A stretch of 56,993 nucleotides of DNA from Nitrospirota bacterium (GTDB lineage Bacteria; Nitrospirota; Thermodesulfovibrionia; Thermodesulfovibrionales; JdFR-88), in assembly GCA_021789555.1 (NCBI GenBank), contig JAJYJK010000001.1, positions 147,823 to 204,815 of the forward strand, given 5' to 3'. The notes under the pieces were generated by a model that was not told where the DNA came from, made no database searches, and saw only the letters and a program-made list of their open reading frames with translations. This document shows, piece by piece, positions 2,559 through 44,623 of this stretch; the stretch's first letter is position 1; each line of letters opens with the position of its first letter. The translations under genes and the position numbers were made by a program.

Positions 2559-3889
2559 GCGCGTTCCTCAGCTTTTTTTTCAATGTCTTCGAAGATATAA
2601 TAGAGCCCCTGGATGCTGTCGGCCATGTCGCGCCTCTCGTTCATGTCCTGCCTGAGGTATTCCCTGAGCCTGTCGATAATGCCGAGGGCGAAGTCGACAC
2701 GCGGGTTCGAGCCCGCCTTGTAAGCGCCAAGGTTTATCATGTCCTCCATTTTCTTGTAAGTCGCCATCGCCTCCATGAACTTGGAGGCGTACTGCCTGTG
2801 CCTTGCGTCGACGATGTCCGGCATGAGGCGGCTCACGCTCTGCAGTATGTCGATGGACGGATAGTGGTTCTCCATCGCGAGGCTGCGCGACAGCACGATA
2901 TGGCCGTCCAGGATGGCCCTGGCGGCGTCCGCGACCGGGTCGGCCATGTCATCGCCCTCGACCAAAACGGTGTATATGCCCGTGATGCTGCCCCGCCCCT
3001 CGCCCGTGCCCGCGCGCTCCAGTATCTTCGGCAGCAGGGCGAACACCGAGGGGGTATAGCCTTTTGTGGTGGGCGGCTCGCCCACGGCAAGACCTATCTC
3101 CCTTTGCGCCTGCGCCACCCTTGTCAGCGAGTCCATGAGCAGCAGGACGTTTTCCCCCCTGTCCCTGAAATACTCCGCTATGGCGGTGGCGGCCAGCGCG
3201 GCCCTCACCTTGGCAAGGGGGGGATTTTCCGCCGTGGAGATGACCACGACCGATTTTTTTATCCCGTCCTCGCCCAGGTCCTTTTCGATGAACTCCCGCA
3301 CTTCCCTGCCGCGCTCGCCGATGAGCGCGATGACGTTTACGGTAGCCTCGGTGAACCTTGCCGTCATGCCCAGAAGGACGCTCTTGCCGACCCCCGAGCC
3401 GGCCATTATGCCGATCCTCTGCCCCTTGCCGCACGTCAGCAGCCCGTTTATGGCCCTGATGCCCAGGTCCAGCGGCTCGCGGATCCTTTTCCTTCCCATC
3501 GGGCTTGGCGTAGGGGCCGTCAGGGGATAATCCATGCCTGTAATCGGGCCCTTTGCGTCCATCGGAAGGCACCTGTCGTTTATGACCCTGCCCTTCATCT
3601 CCGGGCCCACCTTCACGGAGACGTTCTTGCCCAGAAGCTCGACCGGACTGCCGGGTTTGATGCCGGCCAGTTCGCCCGTGGCCATGAGAAGGACATGGCC
3701 GTCCCTGAAACCCACGACTTCGGCGTCTATCGGGTCCCCGCCCGAGGAGTAAATCAAACAGGACTCCCCGATGGAGCTCTCTATGCCGGCGGCCTTGATG
3801 ATGATGCCCGTTATCTCTGTGACCTTGCCGCGGACCCGCAGCGGGTCGCTGTTTTTTACCGCCTCTATGTATGGCGTCAGGCCCTGCAT
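2555..3889 (-). CDS. fliI: Flagellum-specific export ATPase FliI
   Basis: A protein of 444 residues, full length for FliI. The Walker A motif GSGVGKS is at about residues 164-170 and the Walker B motif LLLMDSLTR lies some 85 residues later. The ERGREVREF segment and the GSITGIYTVLVEGDDMADPV segment are characteristic of FliI/SctN ATPases. FliI hexamers energise and unfold substrates for the flagellar type III export gate on the cytoplasmic side. A 78-bp gap (3890-3967) separates it from fliH, longer than the other junctions in this operon. It is coupled downstream to fliJ. Confidence 0.97.
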   Translation of the reverse strand: MQGLTPYIEAVKNSDPLRVRGKVTEITGIIIKAAGIESSIGESCLIYSSGGDPIDAEVVGFRDGHVLLMATGELAGIKPGSPVELLGKNVSVKVGPEMKGRVINDRCLPMDAKGPITGMDYPLTAPTPSPMGRKRIREPLDLGIRAINGLLTCGKGQRIGIMAGSGVGKSVLLGMTARFTEATVNVIALIGERGREVREFIEKDLGEDGIKKSVVVISTAENPPLAKVRAALAATAIAEYFRDRGENVLLLMDSLTRVAQAQREIGLAVGEPPTTKGYTPSVFALLPKILERAGTGEGRGSITGIYTVLVEGDDMADPVADAARAILDGHIVLSRSLAMENHYPSIDILQSVSRLMPDIVDARHRQYASKFMEAMATYKKMEDMINLGAYKAGSNPRVDFALGIIDRLREYLRQDMNERRDMADSIQGLYYIFEDIEKKAEERA

Positions 3890-3967
3890 TTTATTGATCC
3901 CCGCAAATTAATGTCCTGAATTCCCTCACCCTCCGCTTCGCTCCACCCTCTGCCACGCCGCCGCCCG

Positions 3968-4663
3968 TCACTTGTCCGCCTGCGGCTTGCTGCCCAGGTT
4001 GCCGGCCATCTGCTTGATCAGGTTTTTAAGCTGAATGTCGATGCCGGTTGCGATCTCCTGGTGCTGGCCGGCTACCACGCAGCCGAAACGCGGCGACGCC
4101 GGGTCGCCCTCAAAGACGATGTCCGCGTGCGCGCCCAGAAGCTCCGGTTTATGCCTTGAAATGGTCTCCATCAGGGCCGGGCTGGTACGTATCGTTATCC
4201 TGCCCTGCGGCTGCATCTTTGAAAGCGCCTCCCTGGTGATCCTCGTGACGGCCTCCGGGTTAAGGGTAAGCTCGTCGAGGATTATCTTCCTTGCCGCGCT
4301 CAGTGCAAGCTCCACGAACTGCGGCTCCATCTCCCGCAACGTCCTTTCCCTGAGCGACGAAATCTCTCCGATCAGGTTCTCAAGCTTTCCCAGCAGGACG
4401 AGGGCCTTTTGTTCGCCCATGGCGAAGCCCGCCTGCTCACCCGTCGCAAACCCCTTTTCGTAGGCTTCCCGCTCCAGGACTTCCAGGCGGGTTGCGGTCT
4501 CCACGGCCTTCGCGCCTTCATCGGCTTGCCCGCAGAGGTCCCCGGTGAGGACGGACATGATGTCCTGCCCATCCGTGGCGAAGGAGACGGCCTCCAGCAG
4601 CGGCATCTCGAAGGGCAGGACCTCCCTGGGCAGGCCGGCCCCGGCAAAATCGTCAGACCACAA
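3968..4663 (-). CDS. fliH: Flagellar assembly protein FliH
   Basis: A protein of 231 residues. Residues 60-110 contain a helical stretch with small-residue spacing (YEKGFATGEQAGFAMGEQ), matching the GxxxG-type repeats of FliH. The C-terminal half (LALSAARKIILDELTLNPEA; later GCVVAGQHQEIATGIDIQLK) matches the FliH/SctL C-terminal domain. FliH inhibits and docks the FliI ATPase to the basal body C ring. The start overlaps the fliG stop by 11 bases, supporting translational coupling. The acidic N-terminal 50 residues are not recognisable and are variable in the family. Confidence 0.9.
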   Translation of the reverse strand: MWSDDFAGAGLPREVLPFEMPLLEAVSFATDGQDIMSVLTGDLCGQADEGAKAVETATRLEVLEREAYEKGFATGEQAGFAMGEQKALVLLGKLENLIGEISSLRERTLREMEPQFVELALSAARKIILDELTLNPEAVTRITREALSKMQPQGRITIRTSPALMETISRHKPELLGAHADIVFEGDPASPRFGCVVAGQHQEIATGIDIQLKNLIKQMAGNLGSKPQADK

Positions 4664-37565: not shown

Positions 37566-38999
37566 ATGAGAAAATCGGCCCTCTTGCCCCTCATTGCCTT
37601 TCCCTTGCTTCTGGCCGGGTGCGCCACGTTTCATAACCGCCCTCTAAACTCCTCGAAAACGGCGTCCGAGTTCGAGGCCCGCACGCTAAACAGCCGGGGG
37701 CTGAGGGAATTCATGGAGAAAAACATTCATCACCGGATAAAGCCCTGGCCACGCGCGTCATGGGATTTCAGAATGCTGTCACTAGCCGCGGCCTATTACA
37801 GCCCGGCACTGGATGTCATGAGGGCCAAATGGGGAGTCTCCCAGGCTGCGGTGATTACCGCGGGAGGCCGCCCTAATCCCACCGCTTCACTTTTTGGTGA
37901 GCATCATTCAAGCACTCCCGGCGGAATTTCGCCGTGGACCTGGGGTATCTCGTTTGATATCCCCGTAGAGACCGCGGGGAAAAGAGGATACCGTATCCGG
38001 AGGGCTAAACACCTTTCCGCAGCCGCGCAGTTAAATATTTCCGAAACCGCCTGGCAGGTCTGGAGCGGTCTCAAGAAAAGTCTTCTGGACCTTTATGCGG
38101 CAACTGAAAGGCAACGTTATCTGTTGGATCAGCTTTCAGCCCGGGAGGAAATAGCAAGGCTGTTTGAAGAAAGACTGGCCGTGGGAGAGTCTTCCCAGTT
38201 CGAGGTGACCCAGTCCCGCCTGGCGATGGACAAGACGCGCCTTCTGCTTGCGGACAATCAAAAAAAGAAGGCCCGCGCCCGCGGTGCGTTGGCAATGGCG
38301 CTGGGGCTGCAGGCAAAAGCCTTTGACGGCATCCGGATATCTTTCGGCGTCTTTAAGCCGACGCCCGGGTCCATCGATTTACGGGATATCCGCAGAAAAG
38401 CGCTTCTGGGCAGGCCGGATATATTGTCCGCCCTTCAGGAATATGAGGCCTCCCAGTCGGCCCTGCAGCTTGAAATAGCCAAACAGTATCCCGATATCCG
38501 CCTTGGGCCGGGCTATGTATGGGACCAGGGCGACAACAGGTGGTCTATCGGGTTTTCCCTGGTATTGCCTGTCTTCAATCAAAACCAGGGCCCCATTGCG
38601 GAGGCCAGGGCACGCCGCAAGGAATTCGCGGCACAATTTATGGCCCTTCAGGCCAGTGTTATCGGGCGGATAGACAGGGCAGAAGCAACATATGCCGAAT
38701 CACTTAAGGATTTGCAGACTGCCGATTCCCTCGTATCGACGGAAAACAGCAACATGCGAACAATTCAGGCCAGGCTTGATTCAGGGGAAGCCGGTCATCT
38801 CGATCTCGAACAGGCAAAAATGGAATTGGCCTCGACAGAGCTTTCCCGTTTCGACGCGCTCATTTCGGCGCAGGCAGAGCTGGGAGAACTGGAAGACGCC
38901 GTCCAAAGACCACTTAATAAAGAGGAAATTTTTCCCGAAATGGCCGTATCTGGTTTGCAATCAGATGAAAAGATAAAAGGCAGGGGAGTGAAAAAATGA
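37566..38999 (+). CDS. Outer-membrane efflux lipoprotein (TolC/CusC family)
   Basis: A protein of 477 residues. A lipoprotein signal peptide ends in LLAGC (Cys at about residue 19). Two halves of long coiled-coil helices follow, each with features of the outer-membrane efflux family (GRPNPTASL; LGRPDILSALQEYEASQSAL; FSLVLPVFNQNQGPIAEARA). It would form the outer channel of the RND pump encoded downstream. The ATG overlaps nothing upstream; a -10 TATAAT stands 18 nt before it and no Shine-Dalgarno is clear. It overlaps the adaptor gene by four bases. Confidence 0.88.
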   Translation: MRKSALLPLIAFPLLLAGCATFHNRPLNSSKTASEFEARTLNSRGLREFMEKNIHHRIKPWPRASWDFRMLSLAAAYYSPALDVMRAKWGVSQAAVITAGGRPNPTASLFGEHHSSTPGGISPWTWGISFDIPVETAGKRGYRIRRAKHLSAAAQLNISETAWQVWSGLKKSLLDLYAATERQRYLLDQLSAREEIARLFEERLAVGESSQFEVTQSRLAMDKTRLLLADNQKKKARARGALAMALGLQAKAFDGIRISFGVFKPTPGSIDLRDIRRKALLGRPDILSALQEYEASQSALQLEIAKQYPDIRLGPGYVWDQGDNRWSIGFSLVLPVFNQNQGPIAEARARRKEFAAQFMALQASVIGRIDRAEATYAESLKDLQTADSLVSTENSNMRTIQARLDSGEAGHLDLEQAKMELASTELSRFDALISAQAELGELEDAVQRPLNKEEIFPEMAVSGLQSDEKIKGRGVKK

Positions 39000-40063
39000 A
39001 ATCCGGGCAAAAAAGGTTAATAGCCGCCGCGCTTATATTTGTTCTGGCCGTTTTTACAGCATTTTTCTTGCTAAGCGGAGGAAAAAAGAAGAAAGGCAAA
39101 GAAGAAAAAATTCCACAAACAAAACCGGAATTATCGGGCTATACGGTGACCATAAGCGAAGAGGCGCAAAAGACAGACGGCATAGCGACAATGGCGCTCA
39201 AATCGATTCTCTACCAAAAACAAGTTGAGGCATATGGAGAGGTGCTTGCCCCCGATGGGCTCAGCGCATCATATAAAAATTATATTGGGGCAATATCCGG
39301 ACTTGAAAAAGCTAAGGCCCGGTTGAAGGCGTCCAAGCAAGAGTATGCGCGGTTAAAAGTGCTAAACGCGAATGGCAAAAACGTCTCGGACCGGGTGCTT
39401 CAGGCCGCGGCGGCCCGGCTTGCGGTCGACAAAGCTGAGGGAAACGGTGCGCGCGGAGCTTTGCAATCGATAAAAAACGCGATAAGCATCAACTGGGGCT
39501 CTATTGTCTCAGACTGGATATTCGGTTACAAGGCTCCCCTCCGGGAGGTTATCGCAGCAAAAGACGTACTTGTGCAGCTTACCATTCCTCCCGCTGCCTC
39601 GCTTCAAGGCATCCCGAAGGAGGTTTTGTTGGAGCCCCCGGCTGGGGCCGCCATTCCCGCAAGGTTTGTCTCGCGGGCCACAAGCACGAGTCCGAGGATA
39701 CAGGGAATAAGTTTCATATACGTTGCTTCTTCCCGTTCGGGCAGCCTTGTACCCGGAATGAATGTCACTGCCCATATGCCATCGGCAGGGACGCAAACCG
39801 GCTTTTTCGTTCCACTGTCGTCCGTCGTATGGCTAAACGGAAAGGCGTGGGTCTATATAAAGAAAAACGAAACCGGTTTTGACAGAGTGGAAACACCGGT
39901 CTCAACATCAAAAACGTTAAACGGGGGCTATTTTGTCTCCGGGGTCTTATCTGCCGGTGACAATCTCGTGGTTAAAGGGGCGCAGGCCCTGTTATCGGAA
40001 GAGAGCACGCCAAAGGCGGCAGGCGGGGGCGGGGGAAAAGATGGAGGGGGAGATGAAGATTAA
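38996..40063 (+). CDS. RND efflux periplasmic adaptor (HlyD/CusB family)
   Basis: A protein of 355 residues. One N-terminal transmembrane anchor (about 8-27) is followed by a Lys/Glu-rich linker, a coiled hairpin (about 95-150) and beta-barrel/membrane-proximal domains with FVPLSSVVWLNGKAWVYIK. The C-terminal tail is Gly/Asp-rich (about 12 residues). The hairpin is short and the lipoyl halves are divergent. The adaptor would join the inner-membrane pump to the outer-membrane channel. ATGA overlaps the upstream gene. Confidence 0.82.
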   Translation: MKSGQKRLIAAALIFVLAVFTAFFLLSGGKKKKGKEEKIPQTKPELSGYTVTISEEAQKTDGIATMALKSILYQKQVEAYGEVLAPDGLSASYKNYIGAISGLEKAKARLKASKQEYARLKVLNANGKNVSDRVLQAAAARLAVDKAEGNGARGALQSIKNAISINWGSIVSDWIFGYKAPLREVIAAKDVLVQLTIPPAASLQGIPKEVLLEPPAGAAIPARFVSRATSTSPRIQGISFIYVASSRSGSLVPGMNVTAHMPSAGTQTGFFVPLSSVVWLNGKAWVYIKKNETGFDRVETPVSTSKTLNGGYFVSGVLSAGDNLVVKGAQALLSEESTPKAAGGGGGKDGGGDED

Positions 40064-40075
40064 AGGGGACGGGGA

Positions 40076-43000
40076 TTGAGCCCCGAAACCGGACAGCACG
40101 GCATACTGGCGACTATCGTCCGGTTTGCCCTCCGCCGCCGCGGCGTAATCATCGCCCTGGCCCTGGCCTTCCTGGGTTACAGCGCCTATTCGCTCACGAA
40201 GGCCAGATACGATGTGTTCCCGGAGTTCGCTCCCCCGCAGGTAACAATTCATTCAGAGGCGCCGGGGTTCTCGCCGGAGCAGGCCGAGGAGCTCATCACC
40301 CGTCCCGTTGAAACCGCTGTAAGCGGAGTGGGGGGAGTGGCCTCCGTCTTGTCAAAATCGATACAGGGGCTGTCGGTCGTAACGGTCAAATTCAAGACCG
40401 GCACGGACGTCTATCTTGCCAGACAGAAGATAGCGGAGCGGCTCTCCACGCTTACGGGACAACTACCCACGGGGATAACACCGGAAATGACCCCGCTTAC
40501 TTCCTCAACGGGAAGCGTGCTTGTAATCGGGCTCACATCCGCCAAACTCTCCCAGATGCAGCTCAGGACCGTCGCCGACTGGACGGTAAGGCCGCGTCTT
40601 CTGGCGGTGCCGGGCGTTTCCAAAGTGGCCATATTCGGAAGTGAGGACAAGGAACTCCAGGCACAGGTGTTGCCCGGCCGCCTGATTAAATATAACCTCT
40701 CTCTCGAAGATGTGATATCCGCCACCCAAAAAGCCACTGGCATGGAGGGGGCGGGTTTCATCGAAGGCGCAAACCAGCGAATTACGATCAGGAGCGTTGG
40801 CCAGTCATTGACGGACAAAGAGCTTGCCGGGACGGTCCTACTGTATAAAAAAGGCGCAAACGTGGTGCTCGGGGACGTGGCCAACGTGGCGGAAGCCCCG
40901 GCCCCCCAGATCGGAGGGGCGCTGATAAACGGAAAGCCCGGCATACTCATGATAGCCTCGGCCCAATATGGCGCAAACACACTGGAGGTGACAAAGGGCC
41001 TGGAAAAGGCGGAGGCTGAACTGCAACCCGCGCTTAAGGCGCAGGGCATAACGATGTACCCGAGGCTCTTCCGCGCCGCCGATTTCATCCAGACCGCGCT
41101 CCATAATATAAGCTCCGCTCTCATCATCGGGGCGCTGCTTGTCATGATCGTGCTTTTCCTTTATCTGTTTAACTTAAGGACCGCGGCCATCTCCTGCGCG
41201 GCCATACCGCTATCGCTTCTGGGGTCGGTGACGGTATTGGAGCGCCTGGGCCTGAGCCTGAATACCATGACCATTGGGGGGCTCGCAATCGCCATAGGCG
41301 AGGTCGTGGACGATGCCGTGATAGACGTGGAAAACATACTAAGGCGCCTCAGGGAAAACCGTATGGCGAAAGAACCGCGCCCCGCGCTTCAGGTGGTGTA
41401 TGAGGCCAGTGTGGAAGTGAGGAGCGCCGTGGTCTATGCCACTTTTGCGGTCGTGATGGTCTTTATCCCGGTGCTTACCATGTCCGGGCTGTCGGGCAAG
41501 TTCTTCGCGCCCCTTGGCCTTTCTTATATTTTCGCCATCCTCTGCTCCCTGCTTGTTGCGCTTACGGTGACGCCGGCATTGTCGCTTCTCATGCTGGGCG
41601 GAAGGGAACTGCCGGCAGAAGAGCCGCCCGTGGTCCGCTGGACAAAGACGCGCTACAAAAGTATCATCCATGCCGTCGAACGGCGCCCAAAAGCTGTAAT
41701 GGCGTGGGCCGCCGTACTCATAGCGGCCACGGTAACTATCTTCCCATTCCTTAAAAGCCGGTTTTTGCCCGAACTGATAGAGGGAAATTTCATAATACAT
41801 GTATCGGCCGCCCCCGGCACCTCGCTGAAGGAGACCTTGCGGACCGGGGCGCTTTTGGCGGACAGACTGACCGCGCTGCCCTATGTGCGCTCGGTCGCCC
41901 AGCGCGCGGGCAGGGCCGAAGCGGGAGAGGAGGCCAGGGGCACAAACGCAAGCGAATTCGACCTTACGCTAAAACCGCTTGGTAAAAAGGGTTTCGACCG
42001 GGCAAAAAAACAGATCGGCGGCATCGTTAAAAAATTCCCCGGCCTGACCACCTCGATAGACACCTTCCTTACGGAAAGGATAAGCGAGACCATCTCCGGC
42101 TTCAGGGCCCCGGTTGCCGTAAACATATACGGCAACGACCTCTCCGTGCTCGATCAGAAGGCCGTCCAGGTGGCGGGCATATTAAGCGGCATCCGCGGCG
42201 CCGCTGACGTGAAGCTCCAGGCCCCGCCTGCCGCCCCGGAGCTTTTGGCGACGCTCGACAAGCGGGGCCTTGCGCGCTGGGGGTTCGAGCCCGCAGATGT
42301 GCTCGACGCAATACATACGGCCTACGCCGGAAAGAAGGTGGGGCAAATATTTCAGGGAAACAGGGTCTTTGACGTGTCGGTCATCCTCGACCCTCAAAAC
42401 AGGAAGAGCATAACGGATGTGGCAAGCCTGCCCCTCAGGAACCCGGAGGGGACCTACGTAAGCCTCGGCCAATTGGCCGATCTGCGCGAAATGCCGACCA
42501 GGTTTATCATACTCCACGAGGGCGCGCGTCGTGTTCAGACCGTCACCTGCCGTGTAACGGGCAGGAACCTCAGTTCTTTCGTGGCGGAGGCCCAAAAGGC
42601 CTTTTCTTCCCGTGTGCCGCTTCCGCCCGGCGACTATATCGATATCGCGGGCGCGGCAAAGGAGCAGGCCCGCACAAAAAAAGACCTGCTGGTCCACTCC
42701 GCAATCGCCGCAATCGGGATAATCATCCTCCTGTCCATTGTTACGGAAAATCATAGAAACCTCTTGCTGATACTGCTAAACCTTCCCTTCGCCCTGTCCG
42801 GAGGGGTCTTTATGGCCCTGATTACCGGTGGGCAACTGTCGATAGGCTCCATCGTGGGTTTTGTGACCCTCTTTGGGATTACCCTTAGAAATTCCGTTAT
42901 GCTGATTTCCCATTACGAACACCTGGTGAGGGTCGAGGGAATGCAGTGGGGCCTGGAGACCGCGGTGCGCGGGGCATCGGAACGCCTGTCGCCCATCCTC

Positions 43001-43180
43001 ATGACGGCCTCGGTCACGGCTCTGGGGCTGCTGCCGCTTGCGCTTGGAAGCGGCGCGCCGGGCCGGGAGATAGAGGGCCCGATGGCCCAGATAATACTCG
43101 GCGGCCTGGTGACCTCGACCCTGCTTAATCTCCTTATAATGCCCGCGCTCGCGCTGCGCTTCGGACGGTTTGAAAGTTGA
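40076..43180 (+). CDS. RND efflux permease, heavy-metal (CusA/CzcA) type
   Basis: A protein of 1034 residues, the full size, with the duplicated 12-helix RND layout. YDVFPEFAPPQVTIHSEAPG near the N terminus is the hallmark of the heavy-metal branch. Transmembrane helix 4 carries the proton-relay acidic pair in GEVVDDAVIDVENILRRL (about 410). The second half ends VGFVTLFGITLRNSVMLISHYEHL. It exports a cation by proton antiport, but which metal cannot be told. The start is a TTG at 40076, the only in-frame start after a stop at 40061, with AAGGGG at 8 nt. It is 12 bp after the adaptor gene. Confidence 0.92.
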   Translation: MSPETGQHGILATIVRFALRRRGVIIALALAFLGYSAYSLTKARYDVFPEFAPPQVTIHSEAPGFSPEQAEELITRPVETAVSGVGGVASVLSKSIQGLSVVTVKFKTGTDVYLARQKIAERLSTLTGQLPTGITPEMTPLTSSTGSVLVIGLTSAKLSQMQLRTVADWTVRPRLLAVPGVSKVAIFGSEDKELQAQVLPGRLIKYNLSLEDVISATQKATGMEGAGFIEGANQRITIRSVGQSLTDKELAGTVLLYKKGANVVLGDVANVAEAPAPQIGGALINGKPGILMIASAQYGANTLEVTKGLEKAEAELQPALKAQGITMYPRLFRAADFIQTALHNISSALIIGALLVMIVLFLYLFNLRTAAISCAAIPLSLLGSVTVLERLGLSLNTMTIGGLAIAIGEVVDDAVIDVENILRRLRENRMAKEPRPALQVVYEASVEVRSAVVYATFAVVMVFIPVLTMSGLSGKFFAPLGLSYIFAILCSLLVALTVTPALSLLMLGGRELPAEEPPVVRWTKTRYKSIIHAVERRPKAVMAWAAVLIAATVTIFPFLKSRFLPELIEGNFIIHVSAAPGTSLKETLRTGALLADRLTALPYVRSVAQRAGRAEAGEEARGTNASEFDLTLKPLGKKGFDRAKKQIGGIVKKFPGLTTSIDTFLTERISETISGFRAPVAVNIYGNDLSVLDQKAVQVAGILSGIRGAADVKLQAPPAAPELLATLDKRGLARWGFEPADVLDAIHTAYAGKKVGQIFQGNRVFDVSVILDPQNRKSITDVASLPLRNPEGTYVSLGQLADLREMPTRFIILHEGARRVQTVTCRVTGRNLSSFVAEAQKAFSSRVPLPPGDYIDIAGAAKEQARTKKDLLVHSAIAAIGIIILLSIVTENHRNLLLILLNLPFALSGGVFMALITGGQLSIGSIVGFVTLFGITLRNSVMLISHYEHLVRVEGMQWGLETAVRGASERLSPILMTASVTALGLLPLALGSGAPGREIEGPMAQIILGGLVTSTLLNLLIMPALALRFGRFES

Positions 43181-43318
43181 CCGTCCGCTAATGCCGGAGA
43201 TATAGCATTGCCGGGGAGGAGGCGGACGGTTTACCCAGGGTTGACAGCGGGCCGGATTGATAATAAGCTGGGCGTAGAAAGCGGAAAGCAAAAATCCAAA
43301 AAAAAGGGGGGCGCAGCC

Positions 43319-43513
43319 ATGCTCTGCTGTTATGCCGGACTGGACAAGGAAAAACTGGACGAGCTGCAGAAACTCGAAAAGAAACTGGGCAAGACCCTGC
43401 TTGCATTTCAGTGCCACGACACAAAGATGGAAAAGCTCAACCAGACGGAGATGTCGGAAATCCAGGAACTGGAGAAGAGACTGGGTTTCCAGCTTGTGGC
43501 GGTACAAAAATAG
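43319..43513 (+). CDS. 64-residue protein with a duplicated coiled motif, function unknown
   Basis: The protein starts MLCCYAGLDKEKLDELQKLE and has no signal or membrane segment. A motif of about 20 residues occurs twice: LDELQKLEKKLGKTLLAFQ (about 14-32) and MSEIQELEKRLGFQLVAVQ (about 45-63). The segment between holds CHDTK. Cysteines are at residues 3, 4 and about 33. The ATG at 43319 is favoured by a GGGGGGCG stretch about 9 nt upstream; an earlier in-frame start at 43208 would add 37 unlikely basic residues. It lies 138 bp after the RND permease and may belong to that operon, so a metal-binding role is possible but speculative. Confidence 0.7.
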   Translation: MLCCYAGLDKEKLDELQKLEKKLGKTLLAFQCHDTKMEKLNQTEMSEIQELEKRLGFQLVAVQK

Positions 43514-43534
43514 AGGAAATGACGAACAGCGGCG

Positions 43535-44623
43535 CTAATCCCCGCCGTTTTTTAAGACATACCCTGTAACGAGCATATCCTCGTCCACTTTTTTTATAGT
43601 TAAATCCCTCAACCGCCAGGCGTCCTGGAGCCGGGCGGCCCCCTGCCCCGCTATCGCCGGGAACCGGGTGCCGCCGAGGATCTTCGGCCCGTAAAAAAAC
43701 ATCGCCTTGTCCACGACGCCCTCCTCAAAGGCGTGCGCATTGAGGCTTGAGCCGCCCTCTATGAGGACCGATGTAACGCCCATCGCGCCCAGTTTTTTCA
43801 TCAGCCATTCAAGCGAAAGCTGCCCCTTGAAGTTGATCGCCTCCACGCCCGCAGAGGCAAGCGCCGCGGGGAGCGTCTTCCTCGTCACAACGAACGTCGC
43901 GGGCGGGGTCATAAATATCTTCGAGGAAAGCGGGCTTCCAAGCTCCGGGTCTATGACAACGCGGATGGGGTTTTTGCCCCCCTTTGTCCTCGCGGTCATC
44001 TCCGGGTCGTCCGCCGCGACCGTGCCGACGGCCGTCAGTATCGCATCCACGCCGGAGCGCACGCGGTGGACAAGCCTTCTGGCAGCCTGGCCCGTTATCC
44101 ATTTGGACTGCCCGGCAGAGGTGGCAATCTTCCCGTCGAGGCTCATCGCCACCTTGAGCGTGACGAAAGGCGTCCCGGTGATTATGTATTTTATATACGC
44201 CTCATTGAGGATTTTTGTTTTGGCCTCCAGCACGCCGGTTTTTACCTCTATGCCCGCGCCCCTAAGCTCCTGCACCCCTTTGCCCGAGACTGCCGGATTG
44301 GGGTCCAGCATGGCCGCGACGACCTTCTTCACCCCGGAGCGGATTATCACGCCCGTGCATGGCGGCGTCCTTTTTTTAAGATGGCAGCAGGGCTCAAGCG
44401 AGACATAGAGCGCGGCCCCCCGCGCCCGCTCCCCGGCAAGCCCGAGCGCCACGGCCTCGGCATGGGGCGCACCCGCCCGCTCGTGGAAACCCTCCGCTAT
44501 CACCTTGCCCCCCTTGACCACCAGCGCGCCCACCATCGGGTTCGGGCTCGCGAGTCCCCAGCCCTTCATGGCCAGTTTCAGGGCCCTTGCCATGTATATC
44601 TCATCCTGATTTTTAAGGGGCAT
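43535..44623 (-). CDS. ribD: Bifunctional riboflavin deaminase/reductase RibD
   Basis: A protein of 362 residues. The deaminase half has zinc ligands in PHAEAVAL (H54, E56) and PCCHLKKRTPPC (C79 or C80, C89). The reductase half (about 150-360) has VTLKVAMSLDGKIAT, ADDPEMTAR and SVLIEGGSSLNAHAF. It carries out the second and third steps of riboflavin synthesis. No other rib gene and no FMN riboswitch is beside it. Its 3' end is 21 bp from the convergent small protein gene. Confidence 0.96.
   Translation of the reverse strand: MPLKNQDEIYMARALKLAMKGWGLASPNPMVGALVVKGGKVIAEGFHERAGAPHAEAVALGLAGERARGAALYVSLEPCCHLKKRTPPCTGVIIRSGVKKVVAAMLDPNPAVSGKGVQELRGAGIEVKTGVLEAKTKILNEAYIKYIITGTPFVTLKVAMSLDGKIATSAGQSKWITGQAARRLVHRVRSGVDAILTAVGTVAADDPEMTARTKGGKNPIRVVIDPELGSPLSSKIFMTPPATFVVTRKTLPAALASAGVEAINFKGQLSLEWLMKKLGAMGVTSVLIEGGSSLNAHAFEEGVVDKAMFFYGPKILGGTRFPAIAGQGAARLQDAWRLRDLTIKKVDEDMLVTGYVLKNGGD

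Follow-up and report, generated by a model that had tools for sequence, protein, structure and literature searches.

A 64-residue two-repeat protein encoded next to a CusA-like RND pump belongs to a small-protein family scattered among strictly anaerobic bacteria and archaea

The window (the whole stretch of DNA analysed, 56,993 nucleotides from a Nitrospirota bacterium, genome G000) carries a pump cassette at positions 37566–43180 that encodes an outer-membrane factor, an adaptor and a CusA-like RND permease (40076–43180). On the same strand, 138 bp beyond the stop of the CusA-like gene, an open reading frame at 43319–43513 (+) runs from an ATG start to a TAG stop and encodes a protein of 64 amino acids. 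Both the frame and its distance from the pump agree with an earlier, sequence-only reading of this DNA, as does the lack of a signal peptide, none being evident by eye. Compared with its counterpart in G002, a sister species of the same genus, the gene displays a dN of 0.105 and a dS of 0.64, and third codon positions hold 18 of the 32 base differences. Because of these values and the third-position excess, and with homologues found as described below, we regard the frame as a real coding gene that, on sequence comparison, is under purifying selection.

Inspection by eye of 43180–43230 showed a perfect inverted repeat of 9 bp (ACCGTCCGC / GCGGACGGT) that starts at the CusA-like stop codon and may end the pump transcript. 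Just 3′ of the small gene, at 43530–43553, CGGCG and CGCCG lie 8 bases apart and are followed by TTTTTT, an arrangement that was also recognized by eye and is absent from the scanner list. Upstream of the small gene, a looser promoter scan (−10 with A and T at fixed places, a total of 8/12, mononucleotide shuffles) returned a sigma70-like site, TTGACA-17-TAAGCT, at 43241–43269 (+), which is kept in the sister species; a stricter scan returned none near the gene, the −10 hexamer of this site matching at 3/6 positions. With the looser scan, from which loci L053, L054, L088 and L089 were left out, a TTGAC-type promoter-like site was found in 21 of the 24 testable Nitrospirota members (1.25 expected). 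A shared promoter holds only for Nitrospirota, because the same scan returned sites in 4/32 members elsewhere against 1.9 expected.

The pump cassette occupies one and the same slot in the two species of the genus but in opposite orientation (window 37566–43180; L022:2692–8251), as in a clean local inversion. In G002 the three pump genes, with identities of 75, 49 and 81 percent, are encoded on the opposite strand and flanked by rnhB on one side and the small gene on the other, and the order of the small gene, ribD, thrS and infC is kept despite the inverted cassette (these four gene names were read from the protein sequences, independently of any family search). Likewise, TTGACAGC and AATAATAAGCT are kept upstream of the small gene in both species despite the pump inversion. 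The sister species also encodes, before its CusC-like gene, a 108-amino acid frame with a signal-like N-terminus and a His/Cys segment (L022:8396–8722, −).

The 64-residue protein consists of two similar units, repeat 1 at residues 8–31 (LDKEKLDELQKLEKKLGKTLLAFQ; 43340–43411, +) and repeat 2 at residues 40–63 (LNQTEMSEIQELEKRLGFQLVAVQ; 43436–43507, +), which align ungapped at an offset of 32. The BLOSUM62 ungapped self-score is 56, a value reached by none of 20000 shuffles (mean 19.2, maximum 49), and the family's half-profiles align to one another with an hhalign probability of 97.5 (E 7.4e-12). The internal gene duplication proposed in the sequence-only reading is thus upheld, with units of about 24 residues in place of the 18–20 originally given, and is old, because both halves are present in every full-length family member. 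The pattern I-x-x-L-E-x-x-L-G-x-x-L-x-A is conserved in both halves, and conservation is strongest at E20, G24, A29, E52, L55, L59, V60 and A61. In two archaeal loci (L191:6596–6772, −, in G1033; L192:6912–7085, +, in G1090) the order of the two units appears exchanged, much as a circular permutation would produce: profile residues 35–63 match before residues 5–32 in one frame, and this order suggests a changed repeat arrangement in these members. Proteins of about 112 amino acids in three Desulfosarcina-type genomes (L111 in G405, L112 in G406 and L113 in G408; sequences read for the first two) each contain one similar unit, which matches profile residues 34–63 (E about 5e-4 to 1e-3); the L111 protein gave no significant match in Pfam.

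An AlphaFold2 model of the window protein (mean pLDDT 69.6, pTM 0.48) places helices at residues 10–23 and 42–55 and strands at 26–29 and 59–62, i.e. one helix and one strand per repeat, with pLDDT below 50 over the first four to five residues. A second model, of a Desulfobacterales member (pLDDT 77.7), has the same helices and no regular strands, and the helix-strand-helix-strand layout is accordingly predicted with low confidence. Foldseek searches with both of these low-to-middling-confidence models returned nothing below E 0.9, and the best VIA fold match of a low-confidence model had a Z of 3.2 and an rmsd of 3.5 over 49 aligned residues.

Family members are about 60–68 residues long and scattered among strict anaerobes, namely sulfur-cycling Nitrospirota and Desulfobacterota and mcrA-carrying archaea. 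A protein search of 61 genomes from the genus, family and order detected clear relatives in 12 (own genome included, E 5.1e-10 or better), rising to 18 at E up to 1, where the additional matches are weak. By profile search the gene is carried by 25 of 176 genomes of the order, and the 13 carriers in a 345-genome sample of Nitrospirota all belong to this same order. A scan of genome contigs yielded 26 loci, mostly in Nitrospirae and Desulfobacterales records, including the complete genomes of Desulfosarcina widdelii and D. alkanivorans, the latter with the N-terminal part of its copy out of frame. Sampling of 395 genomes from the D. widdelii phylum gave 22 with a match, which in one case (G444, L134) is only partial. 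In the phylum of a Syntrophomonadaceae metagenome-assembled genome the match is restricted to the query locus itself (1/199 genomes), and this locus may therefore be a binning error. Two copies of the gene lie in tandem, about 100 bp apart, at L052:3498–3695 and 3797–3994 (+). A viral origin was set aside, no relative being found among the viral contigs searched.

One record titled 'archaeon' led to an archaeal phylum; of 148 genomes there, 26 have a match, in some cases to two copies. The mcrA gene is present in 25/26 of these carriers and 58/122 non-carriers (p 1.5e-6, uncorrected for clade), and because of this gene we take the phylum to be methanogens and their relatives. For the bacteria, the corresponding link to sulfate reduction proved uninformative within the own order: dsrA occurs in 25/25 carriers and 133/151 non-carriers (p 0.08), and its co-occurrence says little because it is near-universal in the order (158/176).

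Among the members scanned against Pfam and NCBIfam, none was seen to exceed a curated cut-off (in the alignment scans, bit scores refer to the first member and E-values to the others). The window protein, compared with PHROGs, which has no curated cut-off, gave a best E of 0.069, and HMMER searches of PDB sequences returned nothing below E 0.65. Four short peptide strings from the family retrieved 0 papers, and a portion of the text of a paper on Methanosarcina mazei small proteins (PMC11456600) names no such repeat family. With no model in the three family libraries searched and no name among the papers found, the family appears to be unnamed, and its members are probably annotated as hypothetical proteins in the public protein databases.

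The sequence-only reading had proposed that the small protein could serve the pump as a metal-binding partner in the cytosol, in the manner of a metallochaperone or metal sensor using the cysteines and the histidine as ligands. Its location 138 bp after the CusA-like gene on one strand favours such a role, as does the higher frequency of CusA-type genes among carriers of the order (24/25 versus 85/151 non-carriers at 1e-170, p 7.8e-5). This excess mostly follows clade, because the five carrier-holding families commonly have CusA; within them it shrinks without vanishing (24/25 carriers versus 44/58 non-carriers, one-sided p 0.044). Across 89 bacterial and archaeal homologue loci (tblastn, E 1e-5, median locus 14 kb), however, a CusA homologue lies near the family gene in only two; these belong to a single genus, and one of them has the pump inverted. 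Four further carriers from this taxonomic family (G003, G005, G007 and G008), for which a window-type pump is listed, have it and the small gene on separate contigs. At E 1e-20 a CusA-type RND gene is missing from all 26 archaeal carriers, while all 29 other carriers tested have an RND match at this threshold, 15 of them exceeding the CusA cut-off.

Clustering of the frames in all bacterial loci revealed no neighbour shared across families. A gene of PAS type was recognized by eye upstream in four loci (L049, L051, L057 and L135) and ABC-transporter genes occur within several, which we took as chance or clade effects. A few members do stand near metal-related genes, all named by eye, a further point in favour of a metal partner: a 76-amino acid HMA-like protein adjoins the family gene in three related genomes (L077, L079 and L084), a CobW-like GTPase lies near it in L032, and a BtuF-like protein in L139, L143 and L144.

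The cysteines bear on the same question. The window protein contains Cys3, Cys4, Cys32 and His33, as the sequence-only reading described, and only part of this proposed ligand set is conserved, and only in the bacterial branch: Cys3 (codon 43325–43327, +) is present in 52/54 covered rows and, in the tree set, in 24/24 Nitrospirota rows, and Cys32 (codon 43412–43414, +) in 56/59, whereas Cys4 is confined to the window protein (1/54) and His33 occurs in 22/60 rows. Among the 60 bacterial and related rows the two conserved cysteines, 29 residues apart, occur together in 52; two rows have neither, two have Y/S, and in the remaining four Cys32 is visible alone, the N-terminus not being covered. By tree set, the pair is found in 24/24 Nitrospirota rows, 27/31 rows of a mixed set that is mostly Desulfobacterota, and 1/22 archaeal rows. 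The tree omitted L053, L054, L058, L088 and L089, with incomplete or out-of-frame N- or C-terminal ends, as well as the swapped L191 and L192; the archaeal alignment set comprised 24 of 30 loci. Metal binding by Cys3 and Cys32 in the bacterial branch is possible on sequence grounds. The conservation of these two residues there is again what a pump partner might be expected to show, but the remaining ligands are not conserved, many relatives occur without a CusA-type RND gene, and across the family as a whole the cysteines are not kept. On neighbourhoods, co-occurrence and cysteine conservation we rejected the pump-partner proposal, which we now consider very improbable; the promoter-like site retained despite the pump inversion also argues against it, and we found no evidence here of a functional link between the 64-residue protein and its CusA-like neighbour.

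The paired cysteines fit more readily with a thiol/persulfide protein or a redox switch in sulfur-cycling bacteria. In such a protein Cys3 and Cys32 would bear sulfane sulfur or alternate between the dithiol and disulfide states. Outside the archaeal set these two sequence-distant residues are either both kept (51 of 55 complete rows) or both absent (the other four), the counts for this and the mixed set including one archaeal locus with the pair (L055). Cys32 follows the first predicted strand of the AlphaFold2 model, Cys3 lying in its low-confidence N-terminus, and dsrA is present in every carrier of the order. Against this, dsrA is common to nearly the whole order, the archaeal branch keeps the repeats almost entirely without the pair, five archaeal rows have a cysteine at the Cys3 position and none at Cys32, and TusA, DsrE and rhodanese families are not among the Pfam or NCBIfam matches. 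Taken as a rival to the reading given next, we regard a thiol or persulfide function as possible but not probable.

The reading we favour, and consider probable, is that of an independently transcribed cytosolic alpha-beta-alpha-beta repeat protein of strict anaerobes, representing an unnamed family. The small gene would be transcribed alone, independently of the neighbouring RND pump, and its two helix-strand copies would give a cytosolic product that folds, as a pseudo-symmetric repeat, into a small and probably dimeric alpha/beta protein. The biochemical role that we infer for the 64-residue protein is to bind a ligand, or a partner protein, that takes part in anaerobic metabolism. Bacterial members would tune this binding through a single thiol site made up of Cys3 and Cys32 (a disulfide, a persulfide or a soft-metal site), and archaeal members would use the same scaffold without such a site. 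For the bacterial thiol site itself, we consider a redox or persulfide function most likely, rather than copper handling for the pump.

A broader proposal, which we put forward tentatively and rate as rather doubtful, is that this cross-domain family of small cytosolic repeat proteins marks strict anaerobes (here sulfate/sulfite-reducing bacteria and methane- or alkane-metabolising archaea), arose when a helix-strand unit underwent one ancient duplication, has swappable repeats, and serves an anaerobic energy or sulfur step shared by the two groups, with a dithiol in the bacteria.

Proteins of 60–70 residues are under-annotated, and the present family, which has no entry in three libraries, nevertheless has members both in sulfur-cycling bacteria and in archaea that carry mcrA. 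A small gene that stands alone, is under purifying selection and is common to both groups is a tractable candidate for an accessory factor of anaerobic metabolism. The locus also illustrates how adjacency to a pump can mislead, the sister species having a flipped cassette and having kept the promoter-like site of the small gene.

In comparison with known systems, the neighbouring permease (40076–43180) resembles the CusA/CzcA heavy-metal RND family (NCBIfam TIGR00914) over nearly its full length (E 4.5e-202), yet its 673.6 bits fall below the curated cut-off of 701.45. The small protein shares with HMA/CopZ-like and CusF-like copper proteins its small size, the cysteines of its bacterial branch and, in one genus, a CusABC-like neighbour. 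A CxxC motif is a feature of the HMA domain and of CopZ. Unlike HMA/CopZ or CusF, the family lacks this motif (there is none in the window protein), most archaeal members have no cysteines and linkage to a pump is not seen elsewhere; the HMA model is not among the first 25 of the 26 Pfam families listed for 26 members, nor are HMA or CusF families among the Pfam/NCBIfam matches listed. A further likeness is to the LysR helix-turn-helix (Pfam PF00126, HTH_1), with which the family has in common the I-x-x-L-E-x-x-L-G-x-x-L spacing over one helix plus the residues that follow. Since this unit resembles the LysR recognition helix, a small DNA- or protein-binding regulator was considered, and HTH_1 was indeed matched by 16 of 26 members at E up to 1 (best 0.00019), with the LysR structure 1ixc among six very weak fold matches. 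At E 7.9, however, 1ixc amounts to no match, and the window protein scores 14.5 bits over residues 47–60, against a curated cut-off of 26.6; we therefore hold a regulator to be improbable and the motif similarity to be a resemblance only. Only about 14 residues align, the second helix and the rest of the helix-turn-helix being unmatched, and in this family, unlike in HTH_1, the unit is duplicated.
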